From a virus, in the IMG/VR virus record IMGVR_UViG_3300033153_007400, positions 1 through 43,058 of that record: a stretch of 43,058 nucleotides of DNA, one strand, 5' to 3'. Shown piece by piece: positions 7,502 through 41,187 of the stretch (positions are counted from its first letter, which is position 1; every line of letters starts with the position of its first letter). Below the pieces are notes generated by a model, which saw nothing but the letters and a program-made list of their open reading frames with translations, had not been told where the DNA came from and did no database searches. The position numbers and the translations under genes were made by a program.

Positions 7502-8092
7502 ATGACAAGAACGAAAATTGCACCCGGTGTGTATCGTTACGCCAAGAGGATAGGCCAGCCGCTGAAGATGCCGGAGAGCAGAGGGGAGAAGACAGAAGTC
7601 AGAAGCAAGAAGACAGAAGACAAAATCCAGGGGGCTAAACCCGCCGGTCCGGGTGCCTCAGAGGCACGGGAAGCTAAAGCCGCCGTTCCGGCGGCCGGGC
7701 AAATAACACATCCGCAACCCTGGCCGCGGCCGGAGATACATGAGAATTTACCTGGCTTTAAGGCAGCCGCCGTTCCGGCGGCGGGTGAGTTTGTGCGGCG
7801 ATTTCGCGCGACTTTGTACGAATATGCACATTTTCCGAGCGTCGTCGCCGTACGAGTTCGAGACGAAGGGTATGAAGCCTGTGCCCACATCGAACAGCTC
7901 GCAACTGAGCTCGCAGCGGCGGAGAAGTTATCTGCCTCTAAGGCAGCCGCCCGCGAGCGGGGGTTCGTTCGGATGGTCGAGGTGAACGGCCGGGCCCATG
8001 CGAAGATACGCGCTCAATGCAGCGAGATCGCCGAGATCAGGCGGGATGCGCGGGAATTATTGAAGGCTTTAACCACAGATTTCACAGATTAG
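7502..8092 (+). CDS. repeat-laden hypothetical protein
   Basis: A 196-residue protein with ATG at 7502 after GGGAAAGGAAGTGACTT, a strong initiation module. Only the N-terminal 25 residues (TRTKIAPGVYRYAKRIG) and the C-terminal half (FVRRFRATLYEYAHFPSVVA to the end, helical) look like ordinary protein. Residues about 27-45 are encoded by CAGAAG heptamers. Residues about 46-100 and 140-150 are encoded by palindromes (7653-7695, 7752-7782, 7932-7946), giving Ala-rich phrases such as GASEARE and SASKAA. The function is unknown. The gene looks like an ordinary small gene swollen by in-frame repeat insertions. Confidence 0.6.
   Translation: MTRTKIAPGVYRYAKRIGQPLKMPESRGEKTEVRSKKTEDKIQGAKPAGPGASEAREAKAAVPAAGQITHPQPWPRPEIHENLPGFKAAAVPAAGEFVRRFRATLYEYAHFPSVVAVRVRDEGYEACAHIEQLATELAAAEKLSASKAAARERGFVRMVEVNGRAHAKIRAQCSEIAEIRRDARELLKALTTDFTD
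7653..7695 (+). repeat. palindrome composite
   Basis: GTGCCT-CAG-AGGCAC (7653-7667), then GGGAAGCTAAA, then GCCGCCG-TTC-CGGCGGC (7679-7695). The same order of modules occurs in reverse at 28254-28310. Confidence 0.88.
7752..7782 (+). repeat. palindrome composite
   Basis: CTGGCT-TTA-AGGCAG (one mismatch) directly joined to GCCGCCG-TTC-CGGCGGC, preceded by GAGAATTTAC as at 6644-6653. Confidence 0.82.
7932..7946 (+). repeat. 15-nt palindrome (CTGCCT-CTA-AGGCAG)
   Basis: Perfect stem, in frame in the 7502 gene, preceded by GAGAAGTTAT and followed by GCCGCCCGCGAGCGGG, a second short palindrome. Confidence 0.85.
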
Positions 8093-8228
8093 CCACAGAG
8101 ACACGAGGTCAGAAGACAGAAGCAAGAAGTCAGAAGACAGAAACCAGAAGTCAGAAGACAGAAGTCAGAAACCAGAAGGCAGAGACCATTAACCAACTAA
8201 CCAATCACCGAATGACAGGAGTTTTATT
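8088..8228 (+). repeat. composite junction cassette, copy 1
   Basis: Order: TTAGCCACAGAGACACGAGG, then about ten CAGAAGN heptamers, then TTAACCAA-type octamers, then AATCACC and AGGAGTTTTATT before ATG 8229. Copy 2 with the same order lies at 9434-9607. Confidence 0.9.
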
Positions 8229-9428
8229 ATGACTACACAGTGTGTTCCAACCAACGCCGACGATGCGACGGCGGCCCTGCAGGGGGCAATCGATTCGGGC
8301 GTAACCAAAGTTATAGTACCCTACAGAGGCCGGCCTTGGGCAATCCGGCCAATTACGTTGGCGAGCGACCAGGAAATTATTTTCGAGCCGGGCGTAAAGG
8401 TTATCGCCGAGCAAGGGGAGTTTAAGGGTATGAACGACTGCCTGTTCGAAGCGAGCGATAAGGAGCATATTATCCTGCGAGGATACGGCGCTACGCTGGG
8501 AATGCGTAAAGAGGATTACATAGGAAGCGGCTACGATCAGGGTGAATGGCGACATATACTTCAACTCGTAGGTTGCCATAACGTGGAAGTATTAGGCTTG
8601 ACGTTACGGGATAGCGGCGGCGACGGTATTTATTTGGGACAAGGGGGTGCGACATCCCCGCATTGCAAGGATATATTCATCGAAGATTGCACCTGCGACA
8701 ACAACTACCGCCAGGGGATAAGCGTGGTAAGCGCCGAGGACCTGCGGATTGTAAACTGCACCCTCAAGAATACGTCCGGCCATTCGCCGGGCGCCGGTAT
8801 CGACCTGGAACCGAACGAGCCGTGGAATAAATTAGCCAATATAGTCGTTAGGAACTGCATATCCGAGGACAACGAAGGTCGCGGCTTTATAGTCTCCTTG
8901 CACAAGCTCAATGAGGTGTCTGCCGACATATCGATTGTGTTTAAAGATTGCTATGCAAAGGGCTGCGGCCGCGGTCTGGAAATCGTAACCAATAATCTCG
9001 TTGGGCCGAAGGGTTCGATTGAGTTTAGAAACTGCGTTGTCGAGGACGCCCTAAGCGCCGCCGCCTGGATCGTAACGAATACAAGGAGCTTCGGCCTGCG
9101 ATTTACCAAATGTAAAATCAATAACACCAACTGTGCGGACGCCTTTCCTGAAAAGGAGTACATCTTCTCGGACAACGAGTACGGCTTCCCTATCGTCCTG
9201 CGAATCAGGAGGCAGGAGACGCTCGACGCGGCGGGCGAGATATATTTTGACGACTGTTGGGTTTATGGGATTAAAGATGGTCCGGCCCTCTTCGTGCGGA
9301 CCTCCGGTTCCGGCGTCATAAACATCGGCGGCAATATTTATGCTCAACGCAAAGATATTGGAGAGCCGGTAACAGGCCCCGATGCGGAGAATATTCGACT
9401 TAACGTGGAATGGCGGGTCGATCATTGA
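8229..9428 (+). CDS. right-handed beta-helix protein (pectate-lyase/tailspike-like)
   Basis: A 399-residue protein. N-terminus: DDATAALQGAIDSGVTKVIVPY, the typical first turn of phage and polysaccharide-lyase beta-helices. It is followed by repeated short strands with N/D-C turns (IFIEDCTCDNN, LRIVNCTLKN, IVVRNCISEDN, FKDCYAKGCG, IEFRNCVVED). No signal peptide. This fold usually binds or cleaves polysaccharide. It is encoded far from the tail module and lies between two copies of a composite repeat cassette. It may therefore be an acquired depolymerase or receptor-binding cassette, though virion attachment is not evident. Start ATG has AGGAG eight bases upstream. Confidence 0.78.
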   Translation: MTTQCVPTNADDATAALQGAIDSGVTKVIVPYRGRPWAIRPITLASDQEIIFEPGVKVIAEQGEFKGMNDCLFEASDKEHIILRGYGATLGMRKEDYIGSGYDQGEWRHILQLVGCHNVEVLGLTLRDSGGDGIYLGQGGATSPHCKDIFIEDCTCDNNYRQGISVVSAEDLRIVNCTLKNTSGHSPGAGIDLEPNEPWNKLANIVVRNCISEDNEGRGFIVSLHKLNEVSADISIVFKDCYAKGCGRGLEIVTNNLVGPKGSIEFRNCVVEDALSAAAWIVTNTRSFGLRFTKCKINNTNCADAFPEKEYIFSDNEYGFPIVLRIRRQETLDAAGEIYFDDCWVYGIKDGPALFVRTSGSGVINIGGNIYAQRKDIGEPVTGPDAENIRLNVEWRVDH

Positions 9429-11545: not shown

Positions 11546-11770
11546 ATGGGTCGCAGACTGGGGGAATTTGGCGCAGTGTTTGGATGGTGTTACTCGCGTT
11601 ACGGCGGCTGGGGCTGGTGCTTGTTGTACTGGATGCCGGCGCGCCCGGATAGAGACGTGAAATATGGAGGGCCTCAGTGTCATCGTTCTCGGCCTATAAC
11701 GCGTGCGGGATTTATGAGCCAGGCCCGGGGGCTGCATTGGGATAGAAGGTCACGGTATGGGGAAAAATGA
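11546..11770 (+). CDS. hypothetical small basic protein
   Basis: A 74-residue protein starting MGRRLGEFGAVFGWCYSRYG. It is rich in Trp, Arg and Gly. The stop overlaps the terminase ATG by four bases (ATGA at 11767-11770), which supports real translation and coupling. The upstream site is weak (AAGGGTAGG). No family recognised. Unusual composition makes this moderately uncertain. Confidence 0.45.
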   Translation: MGRRLGEFGAVFGWCYSRYGGWGWCLLYWMPARPDRDVKYGGPQCHRSRPITRAGFMSQARGLHWDRRSRYGEK

Positions 11771-13761
11771 ATAATCAATGGACAATCATCAATAATCAAT
11801 CCAGCCCGTGGAGCGAGGCGGAACGTGATATCTGGCGGCCTCGGGCTGCTGCCAACGTATGGCAGTGGGCGGACGCTAATCGTCAGTTGCCGCCTACCAG
11901 TGCGATGCCGGGGCTGTACCGGTCGAGCTACGTGCCGTATATGCGGGCCCCGCAGGAGGCGTTTACTGACGAGGAGGTCGAGATTATCGTTATAATGGCG
12001 GCCGCCCAGGTGACTAAGTCTACGACGATGCACAACATGCTCGGCTTCTGCATAGCCGAGCAGCCGGGCCCGGCGAGCTGGACGGTTCCGACGCGGGAAG
12101 CGGTTATCGAGGCGTCGGGGAAGGTCAAGGCGATGGTGCAGGACTCGCCGGCCGTGCGGAGGCGTTGGGACGGTACGCCCCGGGCGCTATCGCGGAACCG
12201 CCATGTGTTCGACAACATGACGGTTAATTTCCTCTGGGCCGGATCGCCTATAACCCTGGCAATGCGGGAGGCCCGATACGAGTTCATCGACGAGCCGGAC
12301 AAATTCGTACTCTTCTCCGGCAGGGAGGCGAGCCCAATCGACCTATTGATCCACCGGGCGACTACGTATCACGATGCGAAGGTCGTTATCGCCTGTACGC
12401 CCACTACGCCGGAGGGGCCGACGGCGACGTGGTACGAGCGGAGTAATAAGCAGCAGTGCAATTGCCCGTGCCCGCATTGCGGCGAGTTTCGCGTATGGAA
12501 ATTCGTACAGTTGAAATGCCCGAAAACGCTTCGCGACCCGGACGAGATCATCTCTTCGGAGGATGTGTGGTACGAGTGCGAGGTGTGCGGGCATAAGATT
12601 CGCGAGGAGCTAAAGGCCGGCCTTGTCGCGGCGCATAAGTGGCTGGCCGACGGCGTGACTATCGACGCCGACGGCAATATCAGAGGCCGGGAACATCGCA
12701 GCCGGCGGATCTGCGGGTACCAGGTCTCGGCCCTGGTCAGTCCGTTTCCGCGGATAACGTGGCCGCGTATCTTAGCGAATTGGTTCCAGAGCAATACGGC
12801 CGAGGGGATCGCCGCCGGGGCCCTGATGAACTTTCACAACTCTATCGAGGGCATTCCGCACGTCGAGACGGGCAAGAGGCTCAAGGCCCGGGACCTGCAC
12901 CGGCTGACGGGCGACTTTAGCGGGGGGACGGTGCCGGATTGGTGCCTAATTTTAGTGGCCTCGGCCGACTATCACGAGACTCAGCGGGGTATTATTCGGA
13001 TCGACTGGGAGGTTCGCGGGTTCGGGTACGGATGCCGCAATGCAGTGATCGCAAGCGGTTCGGCTCAAAGCTGGGACGAGTACGATGAGGCCGTGCTGCT
13101 GAGCCCGTTCCCGTGGTCGGATGGGACGAGTAACGAGGACAAGCCGTTCAGGGCCGTTAGGTGCTCGTTCGAGGATGCGAGCTTTATGAGCGATAAGGTC
13201 TACGAGCATTGCAATCGGCATCGGGAGATATGCTTCCCGGTAAACGGCATAGGCGGCGGGCGGAGGCAGCCGGTGCAAATGACCGACCTCGAGCAGGCGA
13301 CTATGAGGAGATTGACGACGAAGCAGAGAAAGCGATGGCGGGGGATGCAGCTCGTCCTTATCGATACCGACTACTTCAAGGACGTTGTAACGTCCTGGGC
13401 GGCGGATACGCGAGACGAGGACGGTAATATCACCGCGCCTGCTTTAACTGAGTTCTACGCGGAGGTCCCTTCGCTCTACTTCCGCGAGTTTACGAACGAG
13501 ACGAAGGTGTTCGTGCGCGATAAGAAAGGGAACGGCAAGTGGGTATGGCGGCCGGTATCGAAGGGCGCGCAGACCCACTGCCTGGATACGGCCGTGTATT
13601 CGGCGGCGGCGGCGTTCTATAAGCGGGCGTTCTGGCTGAGAGACCCTGCCTTAAAGGCAGATAAAATCGCGGCGGGGGCGGTGCCTCATAGGCACGTGAA
13701 ATCACAAACAAAGAAACGACGGGGCGGCGGGTTCCTGGACAATATGCCGCAGCTTCGCTGA
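11767..13761 (+). CDS. terminase large subunit, lambda GpA family
   Basis: A 664-residue packaging motor and nuclease of the GpA type. ATPase: a diverged P-loop MAAAQVTKST (about 78-86) and Walker B-like YEFIDEPDKF (about 171-180). A Zn ribbon follows (CPCPHCGE...CEVCG, about 236-280). Nuclease domain: SADYHETQRGIIRID (about 399-413) and IDTDYFKDVV (about 538-547), the positions of catalytic Asp in this family. Length matches lambda gpA (641). The first 13 residues (NNQWTIINNQSS) are encoded by ATCAATY repeats. The C-terminus contains two dispersed palindromes (13646-13695). Confidence 0.93.
   Translation: MNNQWTIINNQSSPWSEAERDIWRPRAAANVWQWADANRQLPPTSAMPGLYRSSYVPYMRAPQEAFTDEEVEIIVIMAAAQVTKSTTMHNMLGFCIAEQPGPASWTVPTREAVIEASGKVKAMVQDSPAVRRRWDGTPRALSRNRHVFDNMTVNFLWAGSPITLAMREARYEFIDEPDKFVLFSGREASPIDLLIHRATTYHDAKVVIACTPTTPEGPTATWYERSNKQQCNCPCPHCGEFRVWKFVQLKCPKTLRDPDEIISSEDVWYECEVCGHKIREELKAGLVAAHKWLADGVTIDADGNIRGREHRSRRICGYQVSALVSPFPRITWPRILANWFQSNTAEGIAAGALMNFHNSIEGIPHVETGKRLKARDLHRLTGDFSGGTVPDWCLILVASADYHETQRGIIRIDWEVRGFGYGCRNAVIASGSAQSWDEYDEAVLLSPFPWSDGTSNEDKPFRAVRCSFEDASFMSDKVYEHCNRHREICFPVNGIGGGRRQPVQMTDLEQATMRRLTTKQRKRWRGMQLVLIDTDYFKDVVTSWAADTRDEDGNITAPALTEFYAEVPSLYFREFTNETKVFVRDKKGNGKWVWRPVSKGAQTHCLDTAVYSAAAAFYKRAFWLRDPALKADKIAAGAVPHRHVKSQTKKRRGGGFLDNMPQLR
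11768..11802 (+). repeat. ATCAATY heptamer array
   Basis: Translated as the N-terminus of the large terminase; the same phrase occurs in the methyltransferase N-terminus at 5152. Confidence 0.8.
13646..13695 (+). repeat. two palindromes in the terminase C-terminus
   Basis: CTGCCT-TAA-AGGCAG (13646-13660) and GTGCCT-CAT-AGGCAC (13681-13695, followed by GTGAAATC), both perfect and in frame. Confidence 0.88.
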
Positions 13762-18933: not shown

Positions 18934-18976
18934 AAGCGGCAGTTAGGTGCCTAACCACCTGGCTGCCGCTTTTTTG
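18934..18976 (+). terminator. rho-independent terminator
   Basis: AAGCGGCAG pairs with CTGCCGCTT and is followed by a run of T (CTTTTTTG). The inner loop holds a smaller TTAGG/CCTAA hairpin. It lies directly upstream of the major capsid gene, so transcription of the capsid gene may use its own promoter or read through at a set rate. Confidence 0.85.
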
Positions 18977-19056: not shown

Positions 19057-19067
19057 GGAGTTTGATC

Positions 19068-20027
19068 ATGGGAGCACAAGGTTTAGGTTCAAGGGCGATT
19101 ATAGGATCGTTCTACAACATGCTGGAGACGGCGCTAGGAACGTCATGGCTGGATGCGATCTCGATGTACTTTACTTCGGACCAGGCGGAGGAGACGTACA
19201 AATGGCTCGGAATGACCCCGGCGATGCGGGAATGGATCGGCGGCAGGCAGGCGAAGGGGTTCCGCGAAAACGGCATTACCATCGTCAATAAGAAATTCGA
19301 GTCCACAATGGAAGTGCCCTGCGACTGGCTGAGGCGGGACAAGACGGGCCAGATTATGATCCGCGTAGGCGAATTGGCGAGAAGGGCGGCCGAGCACTGG
19401 GGCAAGCTGGTCTCGACCCTCATCATGAACGGGACCGGGGATACGAACGGGACGTGCTATGACGGCCAGTATTTCTTCGATTCGGACCACTCCGAGGGCG
19501 AGAGCGGGACGCAGCTTAACCTGCTGACGAATACGCAAGTGGCGGCATTGGACGTGACCACGCCGACGGCGCCGACGCCGGCGGAGGCGGCCGCGGCGAT
19601 CTTCGGAGTGATTGGGTATATGCTCAATTACAAGGACGATCAGGGCGAGCCGATCAACGACGGGGCCAGGGAGTTCCTGGTGATGACCTCGCCTGCTCTT
19701 TGGGTCCACATGGCGCCCGCTCTTTACAGCCCGCTTGTCAGCAGCGGCGAGTCGAACCCGCTGATCGGCGTTATCAATAACAGCGACTTCAAGGTCCGGA
19801 TAGTGGCGAACTCGCGGCTGACGTATACGACGCAGTTCGTGACGATGAGGACGGACGCGAAGACCAAGCCGTTTATTCGGCAGGACGAGGAGGGGATTCG
19901 AATGGCCGCTATCGCGGAGGGGTCGGAAGAGGAGTTCAATAACGACCGGCATTTGTACGGCGTTAAGGCGGTTCGGAACGTCGGATACGGATACTGGCAG
20001 CAGGCGGCGCACGCGACCCTAAGCTGA
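19068..20027 (+). CDS. major capsid protein, Mu gpT-like
   Basis: A 319-residue capsid protein. Length and phrases (WLGMTPAMREWIGGRQAKG, FESTMEVPCDWLRRD, DGQYFFDSDHSEG, FLVMTSPALW, YGVKAVRNVGYGYWQQAAH) match the Mu gpT head-subunit family, which has an HK97 fold. ATG at 19068 follows TTGGAGTTTGATC. It pairs oddly with a lambda-type portal and terminase, so the head module is mosaic. The C-terminus fits the usual end of the family. The palindrome 20028-20042 begins at the stop. Confidence 0.88.
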   Translation: MGAQGLGSRAIIGSFYNMLETALGTSWLDAISMYFTSDQAEETYKWLGMTPAMREWIGGRQAKGFRENGITIVNKKFESTMEVPCDWLRRDKTGQIMIRVGELARRAAEHWGKLVSTLIMNGTGDTNGTCYDGQYFFDSDHSEGESGTQLNLLTNTQVAALDVTTPTAPTPAEAAAAIFGVIGYMLNYKDDQGEPINDGAREFLVMTSPALWVHMAPALYSPLVSSGESNPLIGVINNSDFKVRIVANSRLTYTTQFVTMRTDAKTKPFIRQDEEGIRMAAIAEGSEEEFNNDRHLYGVKAVRNVGYGYWQQAAHATLS

Positions 20028-20042: not shown

Positions 20043-20126
20043 ATAAGTATTGCGTAGCGTTACAGGAAATCCAGGGGCCGGATCGCCAACGGATTAGGCG
20101 GCCCCAGAGATAGAAAGGTTTTGGCT

Positions 20127-20348
20127 ATGACCGAGGAAACGGCGCAGTTGACTGAAGAGGTTTGCAAGGGGCATAGCGGGTTTCACGCGAGGCTCAGCAA
20201 CGTCGAGAAGGACACGGCCGAGCAGTGGACGGCGATCAATAAGATAATGAACCGGCCGCCGATATGGACGACGGTTATTATTTCGCTGCTTACGTTTCTC
20301 TTGGGCTGCGCACTGACATACGCCCGGCTGGCCATAAGTCCATCATAG
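20127..20348 (+). CDS. small C-terminally anchored membrane protein (XhlA-like)
   Basis: A 73-residue protein with a helical N-terminal region (ARLSNVEKDTAEQWTAINKIM) and one membrane span near the C-terminus (IWTTVIISLLTFLLGCALTY, about 47-66). This is the layout of XhlA/haemolysin-type phage proteins that cooperate in lysis. ATG at 20127 with AGAAAGG upstream. It is the best candidate for a holin-type protein in the structural region. It could alternatively be a virion membrane-contact factor. Assignment from topology only. Confidence 0.55.
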   Translation: MTEETAQLTEEVCKGHSGFHARLSNVEKDTAEQWTAINKIMNRPPIWTTVIISLLTFLLGCALTYARLAISPS

Positions 20349-22443: not shown

Positions 22444-23337
22444 ATGGAGATTACGCGATTCGACCTATTGATCGACAGCGACAACACGATCCATCTTACG
22501 GGCCTCAAGGACAACGATACGGGTAGTTACATCAACGATGCTACGCCGGTCGAGATGAGTCTGTTCCGGCTCGCCGCTCGCAGGCCGGTCTTCATCCTTA
22601 CTCCGAACGCACAGGCTACGGGCGGGACGTGGACGCTTAGCTATCTCGGCTCGGAGACTACGGCGCTGGCCTACAACGCGACGATGGCCGAGATTCAGGC
22701 TGCGCTGGAACTGCTTACCGGCGTTCGGCAGGGCGATATTACGCTCAGCGGCCAGTTGATTTCCGCGGGTACGGGGGGGCTGGTGATCGAGTTTGTAGAG
22801 AGTTTCCGGGAGGTCGATCCGGTGACGTTCGACTTTTCGGATATAACCGGGCCGACCCAGGCGGCGTCAACCATAATCAAGCGGACCCAAGGTCTTTTTT
22901 CGGGCGACGTTATTGACAAGACGGGCGGCAAGGTCGGCATTCCGGTTATCCGGCACGAGGCGGCGAGCGGGGATTTTATCAAGATCGAGGGGGCGGGCGA
23001 GCAGCTCGACGGCGAATATACCGTCGATGCGACAACTTCGGCGGATGAGATCGTAGTGACGGCGGTCTTTGCGGACGTATCCCAGACGCTGACGGGCAGG
23101 GAGCGGCTCTATATCGGCATCGTCAACGGGACGGAGATTCCGATGAGCTACGTATCCGAGTCGGACGGTAATTACAAGGGCATCCTGCCGTATACACTCC
23201 AAGGGCTGATCGCCAACGAGCTGATCGCTACGTCCCACGGCAACGTCGAGATAGGGACGTACCCGCTGTTTGCAACGGCGGTTATGGCGGGCCAGCAGAA
23301 GGTGTGGCAGCGTTTAGGGGTAGCGAAATTCTCATGA
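22444..23337 (+). CDS. hypothetical structural protein with beta domains
   Basis: A 297-residue protein with strand-rich segments. Residues 50-140 (GGTWTLSYLGSETTALAYNATMAEIQAAL) match a module I recall in phage structural proteins in which a 'TG(T)F.L...G..T..L.(Y)(N)A(T).(A.I.(A)L..L' pattern occurs. The C-terminal half (DFIKIEGAGEQLDGEYTV, IPMSYVSESDGNYKGILP) is probably also all-beta. It overlaps the next gene by ATGA. Likely part of the head-tail or decoration set. Confidence 0.6.
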   Translation: MEITRFDLLIDSDNTIHLTGLKDNDTGSYINDATPVEMSLFRLAARRPVFILTPNAQATGGTWTLSYLGSETTALAYNATMAEIQAALELLTGVRQGDITLSGQLISAGTGGLVIEFVESFREVDPVTFDFSDITGPTQAASTIIKRTQGLFSGDVIDKTGGKVGIPVIRHEAASGDFIKIEGAGEQLDGEYTVDATTSADEIVVTAVFADVSQTLTGRERLYIGIVNGTEIPMSYVSESDGNYKGILPYTLQGLIANELIATSHGNVEIGTYPLFATAVMAGQQKVWQRLGVAKFS

Positions 23338-23678
23338 CGAATCCTTTCGATACGGCTTTAGAGAATACGGCGGCGGCGTTTACGACTACGTTCGCCGAGA
23401 CTATCGTTTACAAGCCGCTCGTCGGGGACGAGCGGTCTATCGAGGCCATAGTGACCAGGCATCCGACCGCACAACTCCCGGCCGCTCCGCACGGATACGG
23501 GCCGGAGGCATCTATCGACGTCGAGAATAACGCGGCGACGGGGATATCGACGAGCGAGGTAGATTGCGGCAAGGACCTCGTTAGCTTCCCCAGGCGGATC
23601 GACGGGGCGGCGAGGGACTGGCGGATACCGACGATCATATCGCAGGATGCGGGGAGGGTCTGTTATGAATGCAGATGA
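23334..23678 (+). CDS. head-tail joining/completion-like protein
   Basis: A 114-residue protein: TTTFAETIVYKPLVGDERSI, then AIVTR, and at the end RIPTIISQDAGRVCYEC. This is the beta-barrel pattern of lambda FII-like or other head-tail joiner proteins. Its location between structural and minor tail Z genes agrees. ATG at 23334 overlaps the previous TGA. Its 3' end overlaps the receiver-domain gene by 14 bases. Confidence 0.62.
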   Translation: MTNPFDTALENTAAAFTTTFAETIVYKPLVGDERSIEAIVTRHPTAQLPAAPHGYGPEASIDVENNAATGISTSEVDCGKDLVSFPRRIDGAARDWRIPTIISQDAGRVCYECR

Positions 23679-24060
23679 GTGTCTCATAGACACGGGAGCA
23701 CTGAATATATTGTATGTCGAAGACGATACGGCGTTCGCGATGGCGGTGGCCCAACGGTTTCTCGGCGGCCATGAAGTTGCGTTTGCATCGTCGATTTGCG
23801 CAGCTCGCAAATTACTGGACCGGCCGTGGGACGTGATTCTACTCGATTACGACCTGCCGGACGGCAAGGGCGATACGATCATAGCAGAGATCAGGGCGGC
23901 GGGGGATACGACTATTACTATCGGCGTATCGGCACGGGCCGAGGGCAACCGGAACATGCTCAACGCGGGGGCGAATGCCGTCTGCCCGAAGTCGAGCATC
24001 GAGTATATCGGCGAGGATATCGAAATGATTACAGCGACGCAGGAGGTTGCTTGTGGATAA
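23665..24060 (+). CDS. stand-alone response-regulator receiver domain
   Basis: A 131-residue CheY-like receiver: NILYVEDDTAF gives the acidic cluster (Glu19-Asp20-Asp21), VILLDYDLPDG the phospho-acceptor (Asp61), IGVSA the Thr/Ser switch position (Ser89) and CPKSS the invariant Lys (Lys109). All key residues are present, so it could be phosphorylated. There is no output domain. ATG 23665 overlaps the upstream joiner gene and the 3' end overlaps the tail Z gene, so it is locked inside the virion-morphogenesis operon. A palindrome (23679-23693) encodes residues 5-10. Possible roles: titrating a host kinase, or a repurposed fold in assembly. Confidence 0.85.
   Translation: MNADECLIDTGALNILYVEDDTAFAMAVAQRFLGGHEVAFASSICAARKLLDRPWDVILLDYDLPDGKGDTIIAEIRAAGDTTITIGVSARAEGNRNMLNAGANAVCPKSSIEYIGEDIEMITATQEVACG
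23679..23693 (+). repeat. 15-nt palindrome (GTGTCT-CAT-AGACAC)
   Basis: Perfect stem followed by GGGAG, like 6627-6641 but with a compensatory C-G to T-A pair. Confidence 0.88.
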
Positions 24061-24682
24061 GCCGCTTGTTGAAATCACGTTCGATAAGAAGAAGCTGGAA
24101 AATATCCGGCGGATGCTGGCCGACGTGCCGCGCGGGATGCCGAAGGTAATGTCCAGGGCGATCAATAAGACGGCTACGTCCGCCCGGGCGGAGCTGGTTA
24201 AGCGGCTTCGCGAGCGGCTGAACTTGAAGCAGAAGCGCGTCCGCCAGTACGTACTCAAGCCGACGAAGGCGACGTACAAGCGGTGGATTTCGACTATAAG
24301 ATTATCGCGGCGGAGCATACCGCTAATCCACTTCGGGGCCCGGGCGCTAAAGGGCAAGGGTGTGTCGTTCCAGATATACAAGGGCGGCGGGCGGAAGAGG
24401 ATCATTACCCCGCCGACGAGCGCGTTTATCCAGACGATGCCCGGCAGCGGGCACAAGGGCGTATTTCGCAGGCGGCCCGGCGGGGCCATCGCAGCCAGTT
24501 CGTTAGGGGAAAGATACATATACGAACTCAAGGGCCCGAGTATTGCCACGGCGTTCGAGGGCGCCGCCGGGATGGCGGCCCAGGCGCAGTGGTGGGCGGC
24601 GGGCAAGCTCGAAAAGAATATCGACGCTCAAGTGGCACACGTACTGAACAAGTGGCGATCAGCCGGGAGGGCCGCAGGATGA
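24053..24682 (+). CDS. minor tail protein Z-like
   Basis: A 209-residue protein of the prophage minor tail protein Z (GPZ) type: MPKVMSRAINKTATSARAEL near the N-terminus, RLSRRSIPLIHFGARALKGKGVSF in the middle, then AFIQTMPGSGHKGVFRR. GPZ helps finish the tail so that it joins the head. The GTG start at 24053 is chosen because AGGAGG (24041-24046) lies six bases away. It overlaps the receiver gene by eight bases and the next gene by ATGA. Confidence 0.82.
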   Translation: MDKPLVEITFDKKKLENIRRMLADVPRGMPKVMSRAINKTATSARAELVKRLRERLNLKQKRVRQYVLKPTKATYKRWISTIRLSRRSIPLIHFGARALKGKGVSFQIYKGGGRKRIITPPTSAFIQTMPGSGHKGVFRRRPGGAIAASSLGERYIYELKGPSIATAFEGAAGMAAQAQWWAAGKLEKNIDAQVAHVLNKWRSAGRAAG

Positions 24683-25067: not shown

Positions 25068-25068
25068 G
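25021..25068 (+). repeat. composite hairpin-CAGATCC-hairpin
   Basis: CGCCGGTC-AGGAT-GACCGGCG (25021-25041), CAGATCC, then CCTACTT-GTC-AAGTAGG (25052-25068). The first loop AGGAT equals that at 14641-14645 while the stems differ. The last G is the first base of the GTG start. Confidence 0.88.
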
Positions 25069-27113
25069 TGGCGGTTCGGACTTCTATTGGCACTGGTTTA
25101 TGGTCTGCTGCGGGTACGTGGGACACAGGCGTTCCCGTGAACGGGGACAGTGCCGTTATCGCCGACGGCCATACCGTTACCTTCGACGTCGACCAGAGCG
25201 GGTGGGCGAACGGCCTGGCCGGGCTGACGATTACGGGTACTCTTATCTGCTCGACCGAGGCGGGCGATTATTACCTCAAGTGCGCCGCCGACATTAGCGG
25301 CACGGGGCTATTCCAGGCGGGCTCCGCCCAGACGGACCTGCCGATTACTACGACTTTGACAATCGACTTTGCGAGCACCGCCAACTCGATAGAATTAGCC
25401 GACGGCCTGGACCTGCAGCTCTTTTGCACCGAGCCTACTAACAAGATCATCCGCCTCTCCGGCCCCGAGGCGGCGGGCCAGACGGAGCTATCCGTCGATA
25501 CCGACGTTACGGGCGATATTTGGAAGGCCGGCGATACGGTCCATATTAACGATATTGATAATGGCAGCGATTCGGAGGAGAGGATCATCGCTTCCGGCGG
25601 GATTGCGGCCGGTGCGATAACGGTGACGGCGGGGCTGACGAATGCGAAGATACAAGGCGCCTTAGTGATTCTTGTCACTCGAAACATTAAGATAACCGGG
25701 AGCACTGACTACGCTATTAAGAGCGGCTCAGGTGCTAACATCGGGTGCGAGATATCCGGCAACGTGAATGGCATCGTCGGCGGGAGCAATCAGAGAATAA
25801 GCGGGGTGCTCGCCGGCCATAGCTTCGGTATCAATGGCGGGGCCGGCAATATGATACTTGCTGCAATTACAAAAGGCACTTATGGCATCTATGGCGGTGT
25901 TAGGCACACAATAATCGGTACGATCTCCGGGTGCAGCAACGGCATCTTTGGCTGCCATAATTTGAGAATAAGCGGACTGATTTTAGGCAACACCAGGGGT
26001 GTTCGCTCGGGGGGTGGACACATAATAAGCGGAACAACATTCAAGAATACATATGATTTATATGAGATCTTCATTGGCGAATGTTTCAATGTATTATTCG
26101 GCGGAACGACGGAGAATTACAACTACAACGCCTCAAATCCCGCTTGGGTTTACGTCGCCTCTCAGGACCACGATCAGGTGGCCGACGCTTTTAAGGCATG
26201 GTGTCGGGGCGGGATTGTCACCAGCGAGACGGCTTCGCCGCCGGACGGGTATTCGATTTATTATCAGCACGCCTGCGAGGACGCGGACTATCCTTGTTTC
26301 CGGCAGGTGGAGGTGGCTTTAGGGGCTGGTGCTACGCTCGAGGCGATGGCGACGGTTCGGATCGAGAACGGCAAGGACCATTCGGCGTACAAGCCGCGAT
26401 TACAGATAATCGATAAGTTCTCCGATCCGTTGGTTGACTCGAACAATTCGGCCCTTGCCGAGGACCAGGTAGCCACAGCCGTCGGCGACGGTTCTACGTG
26501 GCAGGACCTCGAGGTGAGCTGGGAGAATACGGGCGATACGCCGAGGAAGCTGTTAGTGCGTATAGCGGCGAAGCACGCCGACAGTATAGTGGACGAGGTA
26601 TGGGAGTTCGGGGCGTCGCCCATAGAGGAGCCTCCGAGCGGGGGCGGGGGAGTTACTCCCGTTATCGAGCTGATCGCCGCCGAGATTGCCGATAGGATCG
26701 ACGAGATCACGGTGGCGAACACGTTCAACCAGGACCTGGTCGCGGTGCGGCCGAAGCGCAACGATTTCAAGGATATCCCGCCGGAGAACGGGAAGGTCCT
26801 GATATGGCAGGGAGACGAGGCCCCGCCGGACGCCGAGGCGATAGGGACCGAGGCGTGGCTCCAGGAGTTCCTGCTGATTGCATTAGTGATCGACAGCGAT
26901 GCGGCCGAGACGTCGATAGATACGAGGATCAACCAGGTACGCGCGGATATCGAGAAGAAACTAAAGGACGACCACACGAGGGGGGGAAATGCAATCGATA
27001 CGAAATTCGGAGGGTCGGTGAAATTCGACGAGGGCGGCGGGTTCACGGGGATCGCCGTGCAGTGCATTGTCCATTATCGAACGGAATATTCGAACCCATA
27101 CGAGAAAGGTTAG
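25068..27113 (+). CDS. beta-helix protein fused to a tail-terminator domain
   Basis: A 681-residue protein. N-terminus: WSAAGTWDTGVPVNGDSAVI with D-G-H-T-V-T-F, a G8-like start of surface beta-helix proteins. Residues about 225-330 form a beta-helix with short I-x-G repeats (ISGNVNGIVGGSNQRISGVL). A carbohydrate-binding-like beta domain follows. From about 530, after SGGGGV, the sequence IELIAAEIADRIDEIT, VLIWQGDEAPP and TRINQVRADIEKKL to VHYRTEY matches minor tail/tail-terminator proteins (gpU or DUF3168 type). No start codon occurs at the joint, so this looks like a genuine fusion. Start GTG 25068 lacks a ribosome site and directly abuts a hairpin. Confidence 0.72.
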   Translation: MAVRTSIGTGLWSAAGTWDTGVPVNGDSAVIADGHTVTFDVDQSGWANGLAGLTITGTLICSTEAGDYYLKCAADISGTGLFQAGSAQTDLPITTTLTIDFASTANSIELADGLDLQLFCTEPTNKIIRLSGPEAAGQTELSVDTDVTGDIWKAGDTVHINDIDNGSDSEERIIASGGIAAGAITVTAGLTNAKIQGALVILVTRNIKITGSTDYAIKSGSGANIGCEISGNVNGIVGGSNQRISGVLAGHSFGINGGAGNMILAAITKGTYGIYGGVRHTIIGTISGCSNGIFGCHNLRISGLILGNTRGVRSGGGHIISGTTFKNTYDLYEIFIGECFNVLFGGTTENYNYNASNPAWVYVASQDHDQVADAFKAWCRGGIVTSETASPPDGYSIYYQHACEDADYPCFRQVEVALGAGATLEAMATVRIENGKDHSAYKPRLQIIDKFSDPLVDSNNSALAEDQVATAVGDGSTWQDLEVSWENTGDTPRKLLVRIAAKHADSIVDEVWEFGASPIEEPPSGGGGVTPVIELIAAEIADRIDEITVANTFNQDLVAVRPKRNDFKDIPPENGKVLIWQGDEAPPDAEAIGTEAWLQEFLLIALVIDSDAAETSIDTRINQVRADIEKKLKDDHTRGGNAIDTKFGGSVKFDEGGGFTGIAVQCIVHYRTEYSNPYEKG

Positions 27114-27147: not shown

Positions 27148-28074
27148 ATGGCTTTAGAGGCACCGTTATTAACAAGAATGAGAGTTATTAAGGTCCTGGC
27201 GGAGACCGACAAGGGGACGAAAGTCGCCGGGACGCAGGCGATACAGGTCATGGAGCCGAGCATTGACTGGGAGGCGTCATACGAGCCGAGAGGGGACCTC
27301 GGCCTGTACCGGGGCAATAGCCAGGCGGGCGTTATAATCGGGATGAAGGGGATATGCCCGTTCGAGGCCGAGTTGCGCGGCGACGGCTCCCAGGGCCTGG
27401 AGGCGGGCCTGATACCCCTACTGCAGACCTGCGGGTTTAAGCAGACGGTCGAGGTCTATCAGGTGCACTCGGGCCATACCGACGATAAGACATTATCGCT
27501 CGATTTCTGGCAGGCGGGCGATAAGAAGGGGCTGGCCGGGGCGAGTGGGAATGTTGTCTTTGGCGGGCAGGTCGGCGAGCGGCTGATGTGCAAGTTCGAT
27601 TTTGCAGGGATATGGCAGGCGCCCACGACGGACGCCCTGCCGGCGTTCGCGCCGAGTACCACGCCGCCTATGATATTGCAGTCGGGGACGTTTACGTTCG
27701 CCACCGAATCGATCAAGATAGCGTCGTTCGAGCTCGATATGGGCAATAAGGTAGTGCCGTGGCCCGACGCCGACGCAGCGGGCGGCGTTGCTTATTACCT
27801 GATCGCGAACAACAGGCCCACCTTGAAGTTGATGATGTCGGCGGATACGGTTGCGGGGTTCGATTACTACGGCCGGCAACTGGCCGGGACGGCGGCGGCC
27901 GTCTCGCTCGCGCTCGACGACGGGACCGACAAGATCACGTTCACAATCCCCGCCGTTATCTCGGAGCAGCTCACCGAGGCGGATAAGGACGGGATCAAGA
28001 TGTATGACTTCGTGGGCGAATGCCTGCACAGCAGCGGCAACGATTCAGTGGCCATCGCCGTCACCGCGGCGTAA
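27148..28074 (+). CDS. tail tube protein
   Basis: A 308-residue protein. N-terminus LTRMRVIKVLAETDKGTKVAG, then AIQVMEPSIDWE and LYRGNSQAGVIIGMKGICPFEAEL, and a two-part beta-sandwich with FELDMGNKVVPWPD. These are the features of major tail tube proteins of siphoviruses with contractile-independent tails. ATG at 27148 with TAAAGGAG ten bases upstream. It lies between the tail terminator and tail chaperones, which is the normal order in lambda-like tails. It would polymerise around the tape measure. Confidence 0.82.
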   Translation: MALEAPLLTRMRVIKVLAETDKGTKVAGTQAIQVMEPSIDWEASYEPRGDLGLYRGNSQAGVIIGMKGICPFEAELRGDGSQGLEAGLIPLLQTCGFKQTVEVYQVHSGHTDDKTLSLDFWQAGDKKGLAGASGNVVFGGQVGERLMCKFDFAGIWQAPTTDALPAFAPSTTPPMILQSGTFTFATESIKIASFELDMGNKVVPWPDADAAGGVAYYLIANNRPTLKLMMSADTVAGFDYYGRQLAGTAAAVSLALDDGTDKITFTIPAVISEQLTEADKDGIKMYDFVGECLHSSGNDSVAIAVTAA

Positions 28075-29063: not shown

Positions 29064-31019
29064 ATGGCAAAACACGATGTACTGGTAGTTGTTAAGGCAC
29101 GGGACGATGCCTCGCGCAAGTTTACGAGGATAGGCGGGTCGGCCCTGGGGATGGGATCGATGCTGAAAAAGGCGGCGGGTATGGCGGTGGCTTATTTCGG
29201 CGCTCGCTCGGTAATCAGAATGATTCAATACGGGGCGGCGTTCGAGCAGACTATGAGCCGCGTCGGAGCCAAAGCGAATGCGACAGGCGCACAGTTGGAG
29301 CAATTGACCAAAGAGGCCGAACGGTTGGGATCGGCCACGGCCTTCACGGCGACACAGGCGGGGGAGGGTATGGAATTTCTCGCGCTGGCGGGCTTTGAGG
29401 TGAACCAAATAATCGCGGCCATGCCGGCGACTCTGAACCTCGCGGCGGCCGGGCAGCTCGAGCTGGCGCAGGCGGCGGATATCACCGCCGGGATAATGAA
29501 GGGGATGGGTCATGGCGTGGAGGACCTGGAAAACGACGTCGATATCTTAGCCAAGGCGTTCACCTCGGCGAATACGAACCTTGTGCAGGTCGGCGAGGGG
29601 ATGGTCTATGTGGGGCCAATAGCAAGATCTGTGGAGATGGACATAGGAAAGATAACCGCAGCAATTCAACTTCTATCGGATGCCAAGATACAAGGTTCAA
29701 TGGCCGGGACGAGTTTGCGCCAGATAATAGCCGCCTTGACCGGCGGCATCCCAACGGCGGCAAGTGGGCTTAAGAAGCTGGGAGTGGTGACGATAGACGT
29801 AGAAGGCAAGCTCCTCCCGCTTGCGGACATCATCGATAAGTTGAATGCAAGCATGGCGGACCTGGGCAGCGCCGAACGGACGGCGAAAGTCCTGCAAATG
29901 TTCGGCAAGCGGGCCGGGCCGGGGATGGCCGCAATGCTACTCGAAGGCGGCGCGGCGCTTCGCGCATACGAAAGGCAGCTCGAAGATGCGGCGGGCACGG
30001 CCCAAAGAATCGCCGATCAGCAGCTCGATAACGTGGCAGGTTCTTACACTAAGCTCAAATCTGTTGTTACCGGCGTCTGGCTGGCGATACAAGAGAAGTT
30101 CAAGGGGTCGCTTCAAGACACGCTGGACGCGATGCGCGAATGGGTCGTGGACCACAAGGCCGCTATTCTCGAATGGGCCAACGCCTTTATCGAGGGGGTG
30201 TGGGACGTGAAGGACGGCCTGCTCTCGTTCGTCGAGTATATGCAGAAGGATTGGATCAGCGCGACGAAATGGGCCATGTCCAGCTTCCTTGATGTGCTCG
30301 AAGCGACGTTCAACAGTGCCGTGACATTGGCTATCGCGGGGGGTAGGGGGATTTGGAAGGGCGTCAAGAAAGGGGTGATGGGCGAGGGTGCAACGGGGGA
30401 GGGGGCGATTATGCAAAGGACGGAGAAACTTTGGCGGGAGGCTGATGAAAAACAGATTGATAAGTGGACGGCTTCAGGGTTGCCGGTGTACGGACAGGTC
30501 CGCAAACTGGCCGAGGCAGAACTATTGAGGGAGGAGGCCGAAAAACTAACTGGGCACATAGGCGAAATAGTGAAGTTGCAGTGGATGGACACCTTGGAAG
30601 AAATTTGGTCGAAGGCCCCGGCGGGCTTTCTGGAAGGGTTCGAGGAGCGCCAGCAGGAGCGAATCGACAGAGCACGGATACGCAGCGAGCGGCGTTTCGG
30701 ACGGGGTATGCTCGCAGGATTAGGGACCGCCGGCGGAGCGGGGGTTGCGGGCGGAGGGCAGGATGTAGTCTCGCAGATCGCTACGGGGGCGGCCAGGGGC
30801 GGGTTGGCGGCCCTGGAGTCGCGATTTATGACGTTCAAGCCGGGCCAGACGTTCGACCCTCAACAGCAGACGGCGAAGAATACGAAGGATATGGCCAGCT
30901 ACCTGAAGGATGCGGATAAGATGTTGAAGGGCATCGAGACGGGGATTAACGAGTTGGTTTTCGAGACCAGGGTGCTCCCGGCCCATGCGGCGGAGCTGCC
31001 GCAGACGAGGTTTACCTGA
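29064..31019 (+). CDS. tail tape measure protein
   Basis: A 651-residue tape measure of the TP901-core type: AFEQTMSRVGAKANATGAQ, LGSATAFTATQAGEGMEFLA, MKGMGHG, LVQVGEGMVYVGPIAR, GSMAGTSLRQIIAALTGG. The C-terminal part is helical with hydrophobic segments (about 410-430) that may enter the host membrane. At about 1.5 angstrom per residue, a tail near 100 nm is expected. It follows the chaperone pair and precedes tail-tip genes. Its stop shares one base with the next ATG (TGATG). Confidence 0.9.
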   Translation: MAKHDVLVVVKARDDASRKFTRIGGSALGMGSMLKKAAGMAVAYFGARSVIRMIQYGAAFEQTMSRVGAKANATGAQLEQLTKEAERLGSATAFTATQAGEGMEFLALAGFEVNQIIAAMPATLNLAAAGQLELAQAADITAGIMKGMGHGVEDLENDVDILAKAFTSANTNLVQVGEGMVYVGPIARSVEMDIGKITAAIQLLSDAKIQGSMAGTSLRQIIAALTGGIPTAASGLKKLGVVTIDVEGKLLPLADIIDKLNASMADLGSAERTAKVLQMFGKRAGPGMAAMLLEGGAALRAYERQLEDAAGTAQRIADQQLDNVAGSYTKLKSVVTGVWLAIQEKFKGSLQDTLDAMREWVVDHKAAILEWANAFIEGVWDVKDGLLSFVEYMQKDWISATKWAMSSFLDVLEATFNSAVTLAIAGGRGIWKGVKKGVMGEGATGEGAIMQRTEKLWREADEKQIDKWTASGLPVYGQVRKLAEAELLREEAEKLTGHIGEIVKLQWMDTLEEIWSKAPAGFLEGFEERQQERIDRARIRSERRFGRGMLAGLGTAGGAGVAGGGQDVVSQIATGAARGGLAALESRFMTFKPGQTFDPQQQTAKNTKDMASYLKDADKMLKGIETGINELVFETRVLPAHAAELPQTRFT

Positions 31020-37884: not shown

Positions 37885-37934
37885 GAGCATCCTGCGAGAT
37901 GTCCGGTGATGAAAAGACCGGAGCAGGGATGCTC
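37885..37934 (+). promoter_or_regulatory. long stem-loop upstream of the integrase
   Basis: GAGCATCCTGC (37885-37895) pairs with GCAGGGATGCTC (37923-37934, one bulge), and the inner CCGGT/ACCGG pairs again. TTTGACATACGAAT follows. It may be an attenuator or a protein-binding site for excision control. Confidence 0.55.
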
Positions 37935-37974
37935 TTTGACATACGAATAGGGGAAGAAAGCGCAGGATTGGTGG

Positions 37975-38003
37975 TTGACGCTTGGCTTTGCAAGCCGTAT
38001 ATC
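37975..38003 (+). promoter_or_regulatory. sigma70-type promoter of the integrase
   Basis: TTGACG at 37975-37980, a 17-base spacer, TATATC at 37998-38003. The spacer contains GGCTT-TGC-AAGCC (37984-37996), a palindrome, so the promoter may be regulated by a protein or by DNA structure. The start of transcription would be about 38010. Confidence 0.7.
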
Positions 38004-38007
38004 TTAA

Positions 38008-38022
38008 CTGCCTATAAGGCAG
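38008..38022 (+). repeat. 15-nt palindrome (CTGCCT-ATA-AGGCAG) at the integrase leader
   Basis: Perfect stem placed at the predicted transcription start, upstream of AAAGGAGGTGATC. Confidence 0.85.
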
Positions 38023-38060
38023 TGGCTTGCAGCAACTGTGACCGAAAGGAGGTGATCAGT

Positions 38061-39053
38061 ATGCGTCACATAGTTAAGCCACAGTCAATGACTGATCTTG
38101 TTATGCAGTACATCAAATCCAACAAGCGAATCCAAAGACCCACGATGGACCTTACGCTCAAGGCGTTCGAGCACCTGATCGAGTCGGCAGGAAATATCAG
38201 GCCCGAGCGATTGACGTTCGGCGATTGCGAGCGGTTTCAGCAGGACATTTTACATGCCGGGTGCAAGCCGGTTACGGCGAACATTTACGTAAAGACAGCC
38301 AGGCCGGTATTGAGATGGGCGATGCGAAACGACTGGATCCCGAGCGACCCATTCGAGCACCTCAGATTATTCCCGGCGCCCGCCGGCGAGATCCGGATAT
38401 ATGATCGGGTCGAGTTCGAGCGAATGCTCACCGGCTGCCGGTCGAGGATATGGCAGGGCAGGCTACTGCTCGCCAAGACCGCGGCCATGCGCCGGGGTGA
38501 GATACTGAATCTCACGCTGCGGGACATCGACTTCGACAAGGGCGTCATTACCATTCGCCCCAAGAAGGAGAGCCGGGACACCTGGGAATGGACGACCAAA
38601 AGTAAGAAATTTCGCCAGGTGCCCCTGGCCGATGCGGTCGGTAAGTTTCTCACCGACTTCGTCTTACGCGACCTGCCGGTGAAGCAGCCTTATCTCATGC
38701 TCACCGGCGAGCGTTACGACCGGATTGAGCAGTTGCGCCGCACGGGCCTGCTCAGCGACAGAATCCGTCGATGTCCCGATGAGAATTGGACGAAGCCCTT
38801 TGAGAGGATTCGCGCAAGGGCCGGTATCCACGATGGAACTTTCCACGACCTTCGCAGGACTTGTATTACCGAATGGCTGGAAAGTGGCCTGCAACCACAT
38901 GAGGTAAAAGTGCTTGCAGGCCACGCCTCGATTGAGACGACGATGCGTTATTACGTCGCCACTCGTCGAGCTTTGATTGACCGCGCACGCGCGGCAAGTC
39001 AAAAGGTCATAAAACCAATCGGGGCGACGAGATTTGAACTCGTGGCCTCTTGA
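38061..39053 (+). CDS. int: tyrosine integrase
   Basis: A 330-residue tyrosine recombinase. The start ATG 38061 is set by AAAGGAGGTGATC (38045-38057), a full complement of the 16S tail. N-terminal SAM-like core-binding domain (about 10-110). Catalytic residues: Arg in MRRGEI (about 144), HDLRR (His262, Arg265), GHAS (His288) and Tyr297 in MRYYV. The final codons, IGATRFELVAS, are encoded by the 3' part of a tRNA-Pro on the other strand (39019-39066). This is the classic sign of an attP overlapping int. It would insert the phage into a host tRNA-Pro gene. Confidence 0.93.
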   Translation: MRHIVKPQSMTDLVMQYIKSNKRIQRPTMDLTLKAFEHLIESAGNIRPERLTFGDCERFQQDILHAGCKPVTANIYVKTARPVLRWAMRNDWIPSDPFEHLRLFPAPAGEIRIYDRVEFERMLTGCRSRIWQGRLLLAKTAAMRRGEILNLTLRDIDFDKGVITIRPKKESRDTWEWTTKSKKFRQVPLADAVGKFLTDFVLRDLPVKQPYLMLTGERYDRIEQLRRTGLLSDRIRRCPDENWTKPFERIRARAGIHDGTFHDLRRTCITEWLESGLQPHEVKVLAGHASIETTMRYYVATRRALIDRARAASQKVIKPIGATRFELVAS

Positions 39054-39066
39054 CCCCCAGTCAAGG
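39019..39066 (-). other. attP: attP core: 3' part of tRNA-Pro (GGG)
   Basis: Leftward strand: anticodon stem-loop CTTGA-CTGGGGG-TCAAG (anticodon GGG, G37), variable AGGCC, T-arm ACGAG-TTCAAAT-CTCGT, acceptor 3' strand CGCCCCG with A73. G72 implies a C1-G72 pair, typical of tRNA-Pro. The D-arm and acceptor 5' half are absent, so it is an attachment core that restores the host tRNA on integration. Confidence 0.88.
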
Positions 39067-39072
39067 GGTTGG

Positions 39073-39116
39073 AAGTCAAACGGTCATTGGAAAATAGGAA
39101 AAAGTCAAACGGTCAT
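39073..39116 (+). repeat. direct repeat, probable integrase arm sites
   Basis: AAGTCAAACGGTCAT at 39073-39087 and again at 39102-39116, just beside the att core. Paired copies next to attP are what arm-type integrase or excisionase binding sites look like. Confidence 0.7.
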
Positions 39117-39299
39117 GTTGCTGCAAGCTATTTTCCCCACTCTCTGAGGACGCATACCCTGGCTCGAAGGGGTTCAGGCCGGGGTTGTATCACCTCCGCG
39201 GCGGGACGAGAGATCCGCGTTTTTCGCCGATGCCATAACAGCTTTGACGATTCGCGCACTCTCTCCCGCCATTATTCAGCTTTTCATCACCCTCCTCCG
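39117..39299. other. spacer without features
   Basis: No gene, clear promoter or repeat was seen between the arm repeats and the terminator. Confidence 0.5.
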
Positions 39300-39330
39300 A
39301 ACTCCCAAGCCACGGGGCTTGGGAGTTTTA
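39300..39330 (+). terminator. terminator hairpin after integrase/attP
   Basis: AACTCCCAAGCC pairs with GGCTTGGGAGTT (12-bp perfect stem, 4-base loop ACGG) followed by TTA. It would end integrase transcription and may also act on the other strand because A's precede it. Confidence 0.78.
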
Positions 39331-39333
39331 TCC

Positions 39334-39421
39334 GCCCGCGTAGCTCAATTGGGTAGAAAAGCACTCAGCGATAACGTTTGAAACTCTGAGAAGGTTGCTG
39401 GTTCGAATCCAGCCGCGGGCA
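39334..39421 (+). tRNA. tRNA-like gene with a 17-nt anticodon loop
   Basis: 88 nt. Acceptor GCCCGCG/CGCGGGC plus A73, U8-A9, D-arm GCT/AGC with a GG-containing loop, T-arm GCTGG-TTCGAAT-CCAGC. All match canonical tRNA. The anticodon stem CTCAG/CTGAG closes a 17-nt loop (39369-39385) instead of 7, so the anticodon cannot be assigned. The loop contains TTTGAAA, similar to a UGA-anticodon loop. No CCA is encoded. It may be an intron-containing, remodelled or decaying tRNA. Confidence 0.6.
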
Positions 39422-39437
39422 TTTTCGCGTGAATAGC

Positions 39438-39579
39438 GGGGCGGCTCGATGTTGGTGTACCGAGTCGGGGGCAGGATATGGCGGACCCGCCATAGCGAGT
39501 GAGTGACGTAACACAGGCTCGGCCCCCGGTTAGCAAGTTTACGGCTGGCTTGTCGCAGGTTCGAATCCTGCCCGCCCCC
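39438..39579 (+). tRNA. second tRNA-like gene with a large insertion
   Basis: 142 nt. Acceptor GGGGCGG (39438-39444) pairs with CCGCCCC (39572-39578). D-arm CTCG/CGAG with a GG loop. T-arm GCAGG-TTCGAAT-CCTGC. Between D-arm and T-arm there is a long arm CGGGGGC (39466-39472)/GCCCCCG (39522-39528) containing TATGGCGG/CCGCCATA. A second stem GCAAG/CTTGT closes an 11-nt loop. No normal anticodon arm is visible. A T-run follows. Either a tRNA with an insertion or a tRNA mimic. Confidence 0.5.
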
Positions 39580-39614
39580 CTTTTTTGACAACTCCATACG
39601 CTAAGGAGATCACA

Positions 39615-40451: not shown

Positions 40452-40475
40452 CAACCTTTTTTTGGAGATTAAAAA

Positions 40476-41108
40476 ATGGATGAAACGAAAGTGAAGTTTG
40501 AGAAACGAATTGTGTTGAAACTGGCTGTGGTTATCTATATCGGCCTGGCTGTGTGCGGGTGTCAAAGCGTATCGACAATCGACCCGAACGACATCAAACA
40601 GGTCGCTGAGGACGTGAACAGCCTGATTGCCCGAGTAGATGCGTACCAACAGGCCGCTACAGCGGCGATGGAATCGCTGGCTGCGTCCGGTGCTATCGAT
40701 CCGAACAAGGCGGCTGAAATACTTGCGGCAAACGCTGATGTTGATCGGCTACAGGCTACCGTACAGAAGATCACGGCTGCTCTGCAAACGGCCGATTATG
40801 GTGGGGAAACCGGACTGCTGACGCTGATCACGGCGGCTCAGAGTGCAAACGCGGCTACAGCTCCGTGGAATCCTTACGTGGGAGTTATTGCGGCGGCGGG
40901 GACGATTCTATCGACGATCTTAGGCATATCGCTGAAAAAGAAGTCGAGCGAAGCGTCGGCGTCGGCGTTGAAGTACAAGGCACACAAACAGGGGGCCGAA
41001 AAGACGATGAAGGAAGTTTCGGTGGCGACGGATAACGAGGTAAAGAGGATCGAGACGCTGCTGTACAAGAACATCGGAGAGGCAAGGGCGGTGTTAGGAG
41101 TTACATAA
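40476..41108 (+). CDS. lipoprotein with an additional membrane segment
   Basis: A 210-residue protein. N-terminus is a signal with lipobox around LAVCGCQS (Cys27 or Cys29). A helical, Ala-rich periplasmic part follows (VAEDVNSLIARVDAYQQAA). Then a second hydrophobic segment at about 129-152 (YVGVIAAAGTILSTILGISL) and a basic helical tail. A lipoprotein tethered to both membranes is the layout of unimolecular spanins, but the long C-terminal tail is atypical. It could be an exclusion protein. ATG 40476 follows TTTGGAG. A terminator follows. Confidence 0.6.
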   Translation: MDETKVKFEKRIVLKLAVVIYIGLAVCGCQSVSTIDPNDIKQVAEDVNSLIARVDAYQQAATAAMESLAASGAIDPNKAAEILAANADVDRLQATVQKITAALQTADYGGETGLLTLITAAQSANAATAPWNPYVGVIAAAGTILSTILGISLKKKSSEASASALKYKAHKQGAEKTMKEVSVATDNEVKRIETLLYKNIGEARAVLGVT

Positions 41109-41129
41109 GAGAAGGATAACTTCTTAGCG

Positions 41130-41168
41130 GGGCGGCCGGTGTTCCAAGCCGGGCCGGTCGCCCTTTTT
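41130..41168 (+). terminator. rho-independent terminator
   Basis: GGGCGGCCGG (41130-41139) pairs with CCGGTCGCCC (41154-41163, one G-T pair), followed by a T-run (CTTTTTGG). It separates the lipoprotein gene from the radical SAM gene. Confidence 0.85.
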
Positions 41169-41187
41169 GGCGAACGAAAGGGAAGGT

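Follow-up and report, generated by a model that had tools for sequence, protein, structure and literature searches.

We found that a phage genome encodes a stand-alone CheY-like receiver protein (P0001) within its head-tail gene cluster, between the gene for a lambda gpFII-like head-tail joiner and the gene for minor tail protein Z (gpZ). The DNA analyzed, henceforth referred to as the window, is the whole stretch of 43,058 nucleotides of the IMG/VR record IMGVR_UViG_3300033153_007400. By architecture, P0001 is a single-domain response regulator with a phosphorylation site that appears intact in the sequence and in the predicted structure. Judged by comparison with related viruses, its gene was inserted into a conserved FII–Z pair in this lineage specifically and lies outside the conserved head-tail machinery. 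We tentatively propose, with a confidence that stays a little short of even, that a bacterial single-domain response regulator is carried here as accessory cargo between the FII-like and Z-like genes, is made late, and acts on histidine kinases or phosphotransfer proteins of the host. The genes and signals on which the argument draws are the following.

19062–20027, plus strand: major capsid protein, Mu gpT-like (PF10124, E 3.2e-41), used as a bait for relatives.
22444–23337, plus strand: structural protein, probably tail-type, the upstream neighbor of the joiner gene (phrog_10909, E 1.3e-6; a homologue in the related contig L006 lies at the same place).
23334–23678, plus strand: head-tail joiner, lambda gpFII-like (AlphaFold2 (AF2) pLDDT 81.8; PDB matches to the lambda neck and portal).
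23651–23658, plus strand: Shine-Dalgarno sequence GGGGAGGG of the receiver gene, within the 3' end of the joiner gene (direct reading).
23665–24060, plus strand: single-domain receiver (CheY-like), P0001, 131 aa (PF00072, AF2 fold, catalytic residues, codon usage).
24041–24046, plus strand: Shine-Dalgarno sequence AGGAGG of the gpZ gene, inside the receiver gene (direct reading).
24053–24682, plus strand: minor tail protein Z / tail completion protein (Neck1), with a GTG start (PF06763, E 3.1e-8; phrog_27, E 8.8e-32).
25068–27113, plus strand: beta-helix/G8-like N-terminal part that continues without a stop into a small tail protein at the tail-terminator position (PF10162 just below the cut-off).
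27148–28074, plus strand: tail tube protein (PF18906 below the cut-off; phrog_290, E 3.9e-11).
29064–31019, plus strand: tape measure protein (phrog_1533, E 1.9e-76).

The start of the receiver gene was placed by direct sequence reading at 23665, with GGAGG 7 nt upstream, rather than at the earlier ATG given by the ORF caller (23647), which has no Shine-Dalgarno sequence. The gene overlaps the joiner gene by 14 nt and, with the GTG at 24053 as the best start of gpZ, the gpZ gene by 8 nt. Its in-frame codon log-likelihood is +0.23 per codon, in the range of the phage structural genes, and the other five frames are negative. A consensus scan for sigma-70 patterns detected no promoter-like site next to the receiver gene, and a consensus scan of the plus strand detected no terminator-like site there. 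The gene is real and very probably expressed together with the virion operon, since it has its own Shine-Dalgarno sequence, overlaps its neighbors, shows no promoter or terminator of its own in these scans and has the codon usage of virion genes. Because it also has overlaps and ribosome-binding sites in common with both neighbors, the protein is probably made late. A chance ORF was ruled out by the PF00072 match and the in-frame codon usage, and an assembly join at the receiver was thought unlikely, as neither the two gene overlaps nor the two ribosome-binding sites are disrupted.

In a Pfam profile search, residues 15–110 of P0001 matched PF00072 (Response_reg) with 36.6 bits (E 5.7e-9), above the curated cut-off of 30.2 bits against which membership was judged. 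The AF2 model (mean pLDDT 85.6, pTM 0.81) has the order E-H-E-H-E-H-E-H-E-H, that is, a (beta-alpha)5 flavodoxin-like fold. Foldseek retrieved 523 PDB chains for this model at E ≤ 1e-3, and the 50 matches listed are, without exception, receivers or regulators that contain a receiver (TM about 0.66–0.81 by query). According to Pfam and AF2, the receiver domain spans approximately residues 14–120 of the 131 aa and an output domain is absent. In an alignment with CheY and about 40 bacterial receivers, the acidic pair E19/D20 (with D21 adjoining), the phospho-acceptor D61, S89 and K109 fall on the catalytic positions. These results confirm the original prediction of a complete CheY-like receiver that has its catalytic residues, lacks an output domain and overlaps both the joiner gene and the gene for minor tail protein Z.

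Two features that are common in receivers, and not required for membership, are missing from P0001: the switch aromatic (Y106 in CheY) is V, and K109 is followed by S in place of the usual P of the cis K-P dipeptide. In addition, the span from S89 to K109 is two residues shorter than in CheY, with alpha4 shortened by two residues. All three of these departures bear on function. As K-S receivers are common in bacteria, the V and the K-S dipeptide do not exclude membership in the receiver family, and they could mean that phospho-switching is altered or absent.

The family assignment also bears on whether P0001 might be a divergent receiver of the cyclic-nucleotide-processing cREC type, as in jumbo phages, acting in counter-defense. 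The cREC domains of phages keep the receiver aspartates (PMC7824862), which counts for this reading. We give it only a very slight probability, as the only Pfam family that P0001 matches at E 0.01 is classical Response_reg, its PDB matches are classical receivers, and PADLOC gave no match. Furthermore, the NAD/ADP-ribose-processing neighbors that define cREC contexts are absent, the neighbors being head-tail genes.

We examined the gene cluster in which the receiver lies. In the PDB, the joiner model is matched best by 114-residue chains from the lambda neck and portal complexes (E 2.2e-4 and 8.8e-4); from its length and from general knowledge of lambda, we take the neck chain to be gpFII. The upstream structural gene (22444–23337) overlaps the joiner gene by ATGA. 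Further downstream, the gene at 25068–27113 is homologous to a separate 154-aa gene of L006 (15720–16184, E 1e-42). It has no stop between its beta-helix/G8-like part and its tail part, and may be a fusion or contain a nested second start. A strong terminator-like hairpin on the plus strand (16 pairs, then TTTT) lies within the virion operon at 18934–18971, just upstream of the capsid gene. Directly after the capsid gene, a 75-aa ORF (20121–20348) has a coiled-coil-like N-terminal part and one hydrophobic C-terminal segment, a holin-like form with no PHROG match. Toward the end of the window (37899–42689), an integrase, a tRNA-Arg (39334–39421), a replication initiator, a radical SAM protein and a second integrase stand in a row, which is a possible attachment site or nested element. 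No kinase family was found among the window ORFs tested, and P0001 is the sole PF00072 match across the whole record, a result that also served as the positive control for the search of related viruses.

To gather related viruses, IMG/VR was searched with the capsid, gpZ and joiner proteins. Of the related contigs obtained, 18 distinct ones have both a joiner and a gpZ gene, and in all 18 these two genes directly adjoin each other, separated by −1 to 79 nt; the gap in the window is 380 nt and is occupied by the receiver gene. The 18 contigs include the one closest by gpZ (L084, 55% identity) as well as contigs with capsids 61–76% identical to that of the window (L002, L003, L006, L009, L011, L012 and L013). 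The gpZ of L085 is nearer still (71% identity over part of gpZ), and this contig ends inside gpZ. A search for PF00072 in 73 related records, many of which are fragments, gave no match, and the same search recovers the window gene. No orthologue of the receiver at the same place was found in IMG/VR, either by direct search or via the relatives of gpZ, joiner and capsid. A capsid search for the host among 395 genomes of one phylum gave no match and, having been run without a positive control, is uninformative.

These comparisons weigh on the idea that the receiver belongs to the head-tail connector, with its fold serving a structural purpose or one of timing. The gene lies precisely at the junction of the connector genes FII and Z, and its reading frame overlaps both, which speaks for such a component. 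Against it, the receiver is missing from every one of the 18 relatives with the same FII–Z pair, the joiner and gpZ are retained in relatives without the receiver (32–42% and 25–49% identity, respectively), and P0001 keeps all of its catalytic residues, which a structural role does not need. Because the FII–Z pair is uninterrupted in these relatives, an essential role in head-tail joining is strongly argued against. A structural role is unlikely, and we regard a virion or assembly component as highly improbable overall. The original prediction had also raised the possibilities that the receiver times assembly or is packaged in the virion. Both are weakened by the 18 contigs that keep the joiner and gpZ without it and by the 0 of 73 result. 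Its absence from the same place in related phages thus tells against the virion and assembly part of that prediction, and the claim of a real gene stands.

The main rival to action on host kinases is that the receiver is passive cargo, or cargo that benefits the lysogen: a host receiver that was captured by illegitimate recombination, is tolerated at a gene boundary that permits insertions, and has no defined role in infection or a role in the lysogen only. We consider this a serious, if unlikely, explanation. It is consistent with the presence of the receiver in one phage only. At the boundary that holds the receiver in the window, L084 has a joiner–gpZ gap of 79 nt filled with 9–10 nt repeats (ctaaagtga; 3925–3990), which suggests a tolerant, variable spot. 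Judging from the integrases and the tRNA of the window, the phage may be temperate, in keeping with passive or lysogen-benefiting cargo. On the other hand, the complete active site, the phage-matching codon usage, and the tight overlaps and ribosome-site coupling with the neighbors argue against a fresh neutral insertion, and the scan for sigma-70 patterns revealed no promoter from which the gene would be expressed in the lysogen. Set against the classical description of a phage moron, the receiver is an extra gene absent from relatives, and a promoter and terminator of its own were not found in the plus-strand consensus scan (promoters of sigma-70 type only). If the gene is neutral cargo, the FII–Z boundary would be a tolerant insertion spot and annotators should expect variation there. 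The window is not alone in having an accessory gene in this operon: the close relative L006 has a glycosyltransferase-like ORF (11639–12241) within the same virion module. Such genes in related modules count for the proposed reading of the receiver as inserted accessory cargo that acts on the host.

The best reading of the origin of the receiver is horizontal acquisition from bacteria. The nearest bacterial receivers are approximately 30–46% identical to P0001 over part of the domain, and a comparison with GTDB genomes gave two weak matches, to a 459-aa NtrC-type regulator (L082) and to a multi-receiver protein (L083). A bacterial stand-alone receiver of the same kind has a match in 292 of the 297 genomes of one phylum, so donors are plentiful. 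Chromosomal stand-alone receivers (L112 and L135–L164) resemble P0001 in the S/T-K span of 21 residues and in the K-S dipeptide; since the members of this set were collected for their similarity to a single protein of this type, its size is uninformative on frequency. Membership of P0001 in this chromosomal family with K-S and short alpha4 was suggested by the indel and the dipeptide, but the tree does not group them. Support around P0001 in the tree is weak, with a branch of >2.6 substitutions per site to anything, and the shared K-S and short alpha4 may be convergent. P0001 also matches PHROG 731 and 5982, unannotated families of 227 and 1030 positions that we suspect to be ordinary regulators and hybrid kinases.

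A stand-alone receiver whose site is intact can serve as a phosphate sink, as a direct inhibitor of a kinase, as a step in a phosphorelay, or as the binding partner of an effector. Given the intact phosphorylation site, the lack of an output domain and the absence of a phage-encoded kinase or partner, the likeliest place of action of P0001 is the infected cell, where its targets would be host kinases or phosphotransfer proteins. In the mechanism that we propose, a receiver gene captured from bacteria and inserted into a lambda-type head-tail operon would be expressed late with the virion proteins. In the infected cell, the protein would dock to a histidine kinase or phosphotransfer protein of the host, or to several of them, and, as a decoy or inhibitor, would take up the phosphoryl group or block the protein to which it is docked, so that a host two-component pathway is quieted during virion production. 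By analogy, sequestration of host kinase phosphate by the phage receiver is possible and is the class of mechanism that we prefer. The single-domain regulator Osp inhibits CckA at equimolar amounts (PMC9430884), and the phage protein PIT4 binds several host kinases (PMC10714779). The strong divergence of P0001, its presence in a single genome, and the loss of the switch aromatic together with the K-S dipeptide count against action on host kinases. If this action is real, the phage would be silencing host signaling via a borrowed receiver at the stage of virion production.

Alternatively, P0001 could be a true switch that is phosphorylated by a host kinase and then binds a host or phage effector, as do CheY, DivK and MrrA, thereby sensing the state of the host and timing late events such as assembly or lysis. 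The intact D61, S89 and K109, the free alpha4-beta5-alpha5 surface and the probable production of the receiver with late proteins are all compatible with a switch. It is also in line with bacterial single-domain regulators, which act via direct protein targets (PMC5964349, PMC12802240). However, the phage has no partner kinase or effector, V replaces the switch aromatic, and alpha4 is two residues short; we judge a switch to be improbable.

Receivers were also sought in other phages. No relatives of P0001 were found in the phage collection at E ≤ 1e-3, and at E 10 the matches were to generic regulators with only about 25–38% identity. An unrelated viral contig, L107, encodes a 257-aa protein (7914–8687) with a receiver that has all four catalytic residues, is only weakly akin to P0001 (34% identity) and likewise has an alpha4 two residues short. 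The receiver is followed by approximately 120 aa in which a coiled-coil-like region precedes a hydrophobic C-terminal segment, a possible membrane anchor. The surroundings of this gene resemble tail/fiber genes by reading, with virion PHROG matches only on the large downstream protein. The window may therefore not be the sole virion-type cluster with a receiver, and such cargo may recur. A broader proposal, which we hold to be distinctly doubtful, is that different phage lineages recurrently put lone receivers in virion operons, where they are made late to serve as decoys of host two-component signaling, soluble in the window and possibly membrane-anchored in L107. If true, these decoys would form a class of host-takeover protein that has had no name until now.

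We compared the receiver and its surroundings to known systems. The window follows the order of the lambda head-tail operon (FII-Z-U-V), with joiner, gpZ, tail-terminator position, tube and tape measure, and differs from it by the receiver between the FII-like and Z-like genes; to our knowledge, lambda has no gene between FII and Z. Like the CheY, Spo0F, DivK, Osp and MrrA type of regulator, P0001 is a stand-alone PF00072 protein whose phosphorylation site is complete and which lacks an output domain. Unlike these, it is encoded in a phage virion operon, has V as the switch residue, a short alpha4 and K-S, and has no cognate kinase nearby. The receivers with K-S and short alpha4 share with P0001 the stand-alone form, the S/T-K span of 21 residues and the dipeptide, whereas they are chromosomal genes and are placed apart in the tree. 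The L107 receiver differs in its C-terminal extension, in the phage that carries it and in the position of its gene. Small receiver or regulator proteins encoded by phages, as P0001 is, include CDS-30 of Alteromonas phage V22, a small receiver listed among auxiliary metabolic genes (PMC7289586), and BFVD entries such as A0A6J5RMP2. Receivers encoded by phages are not new in themselves; the new feature is the placement between FII and Z.
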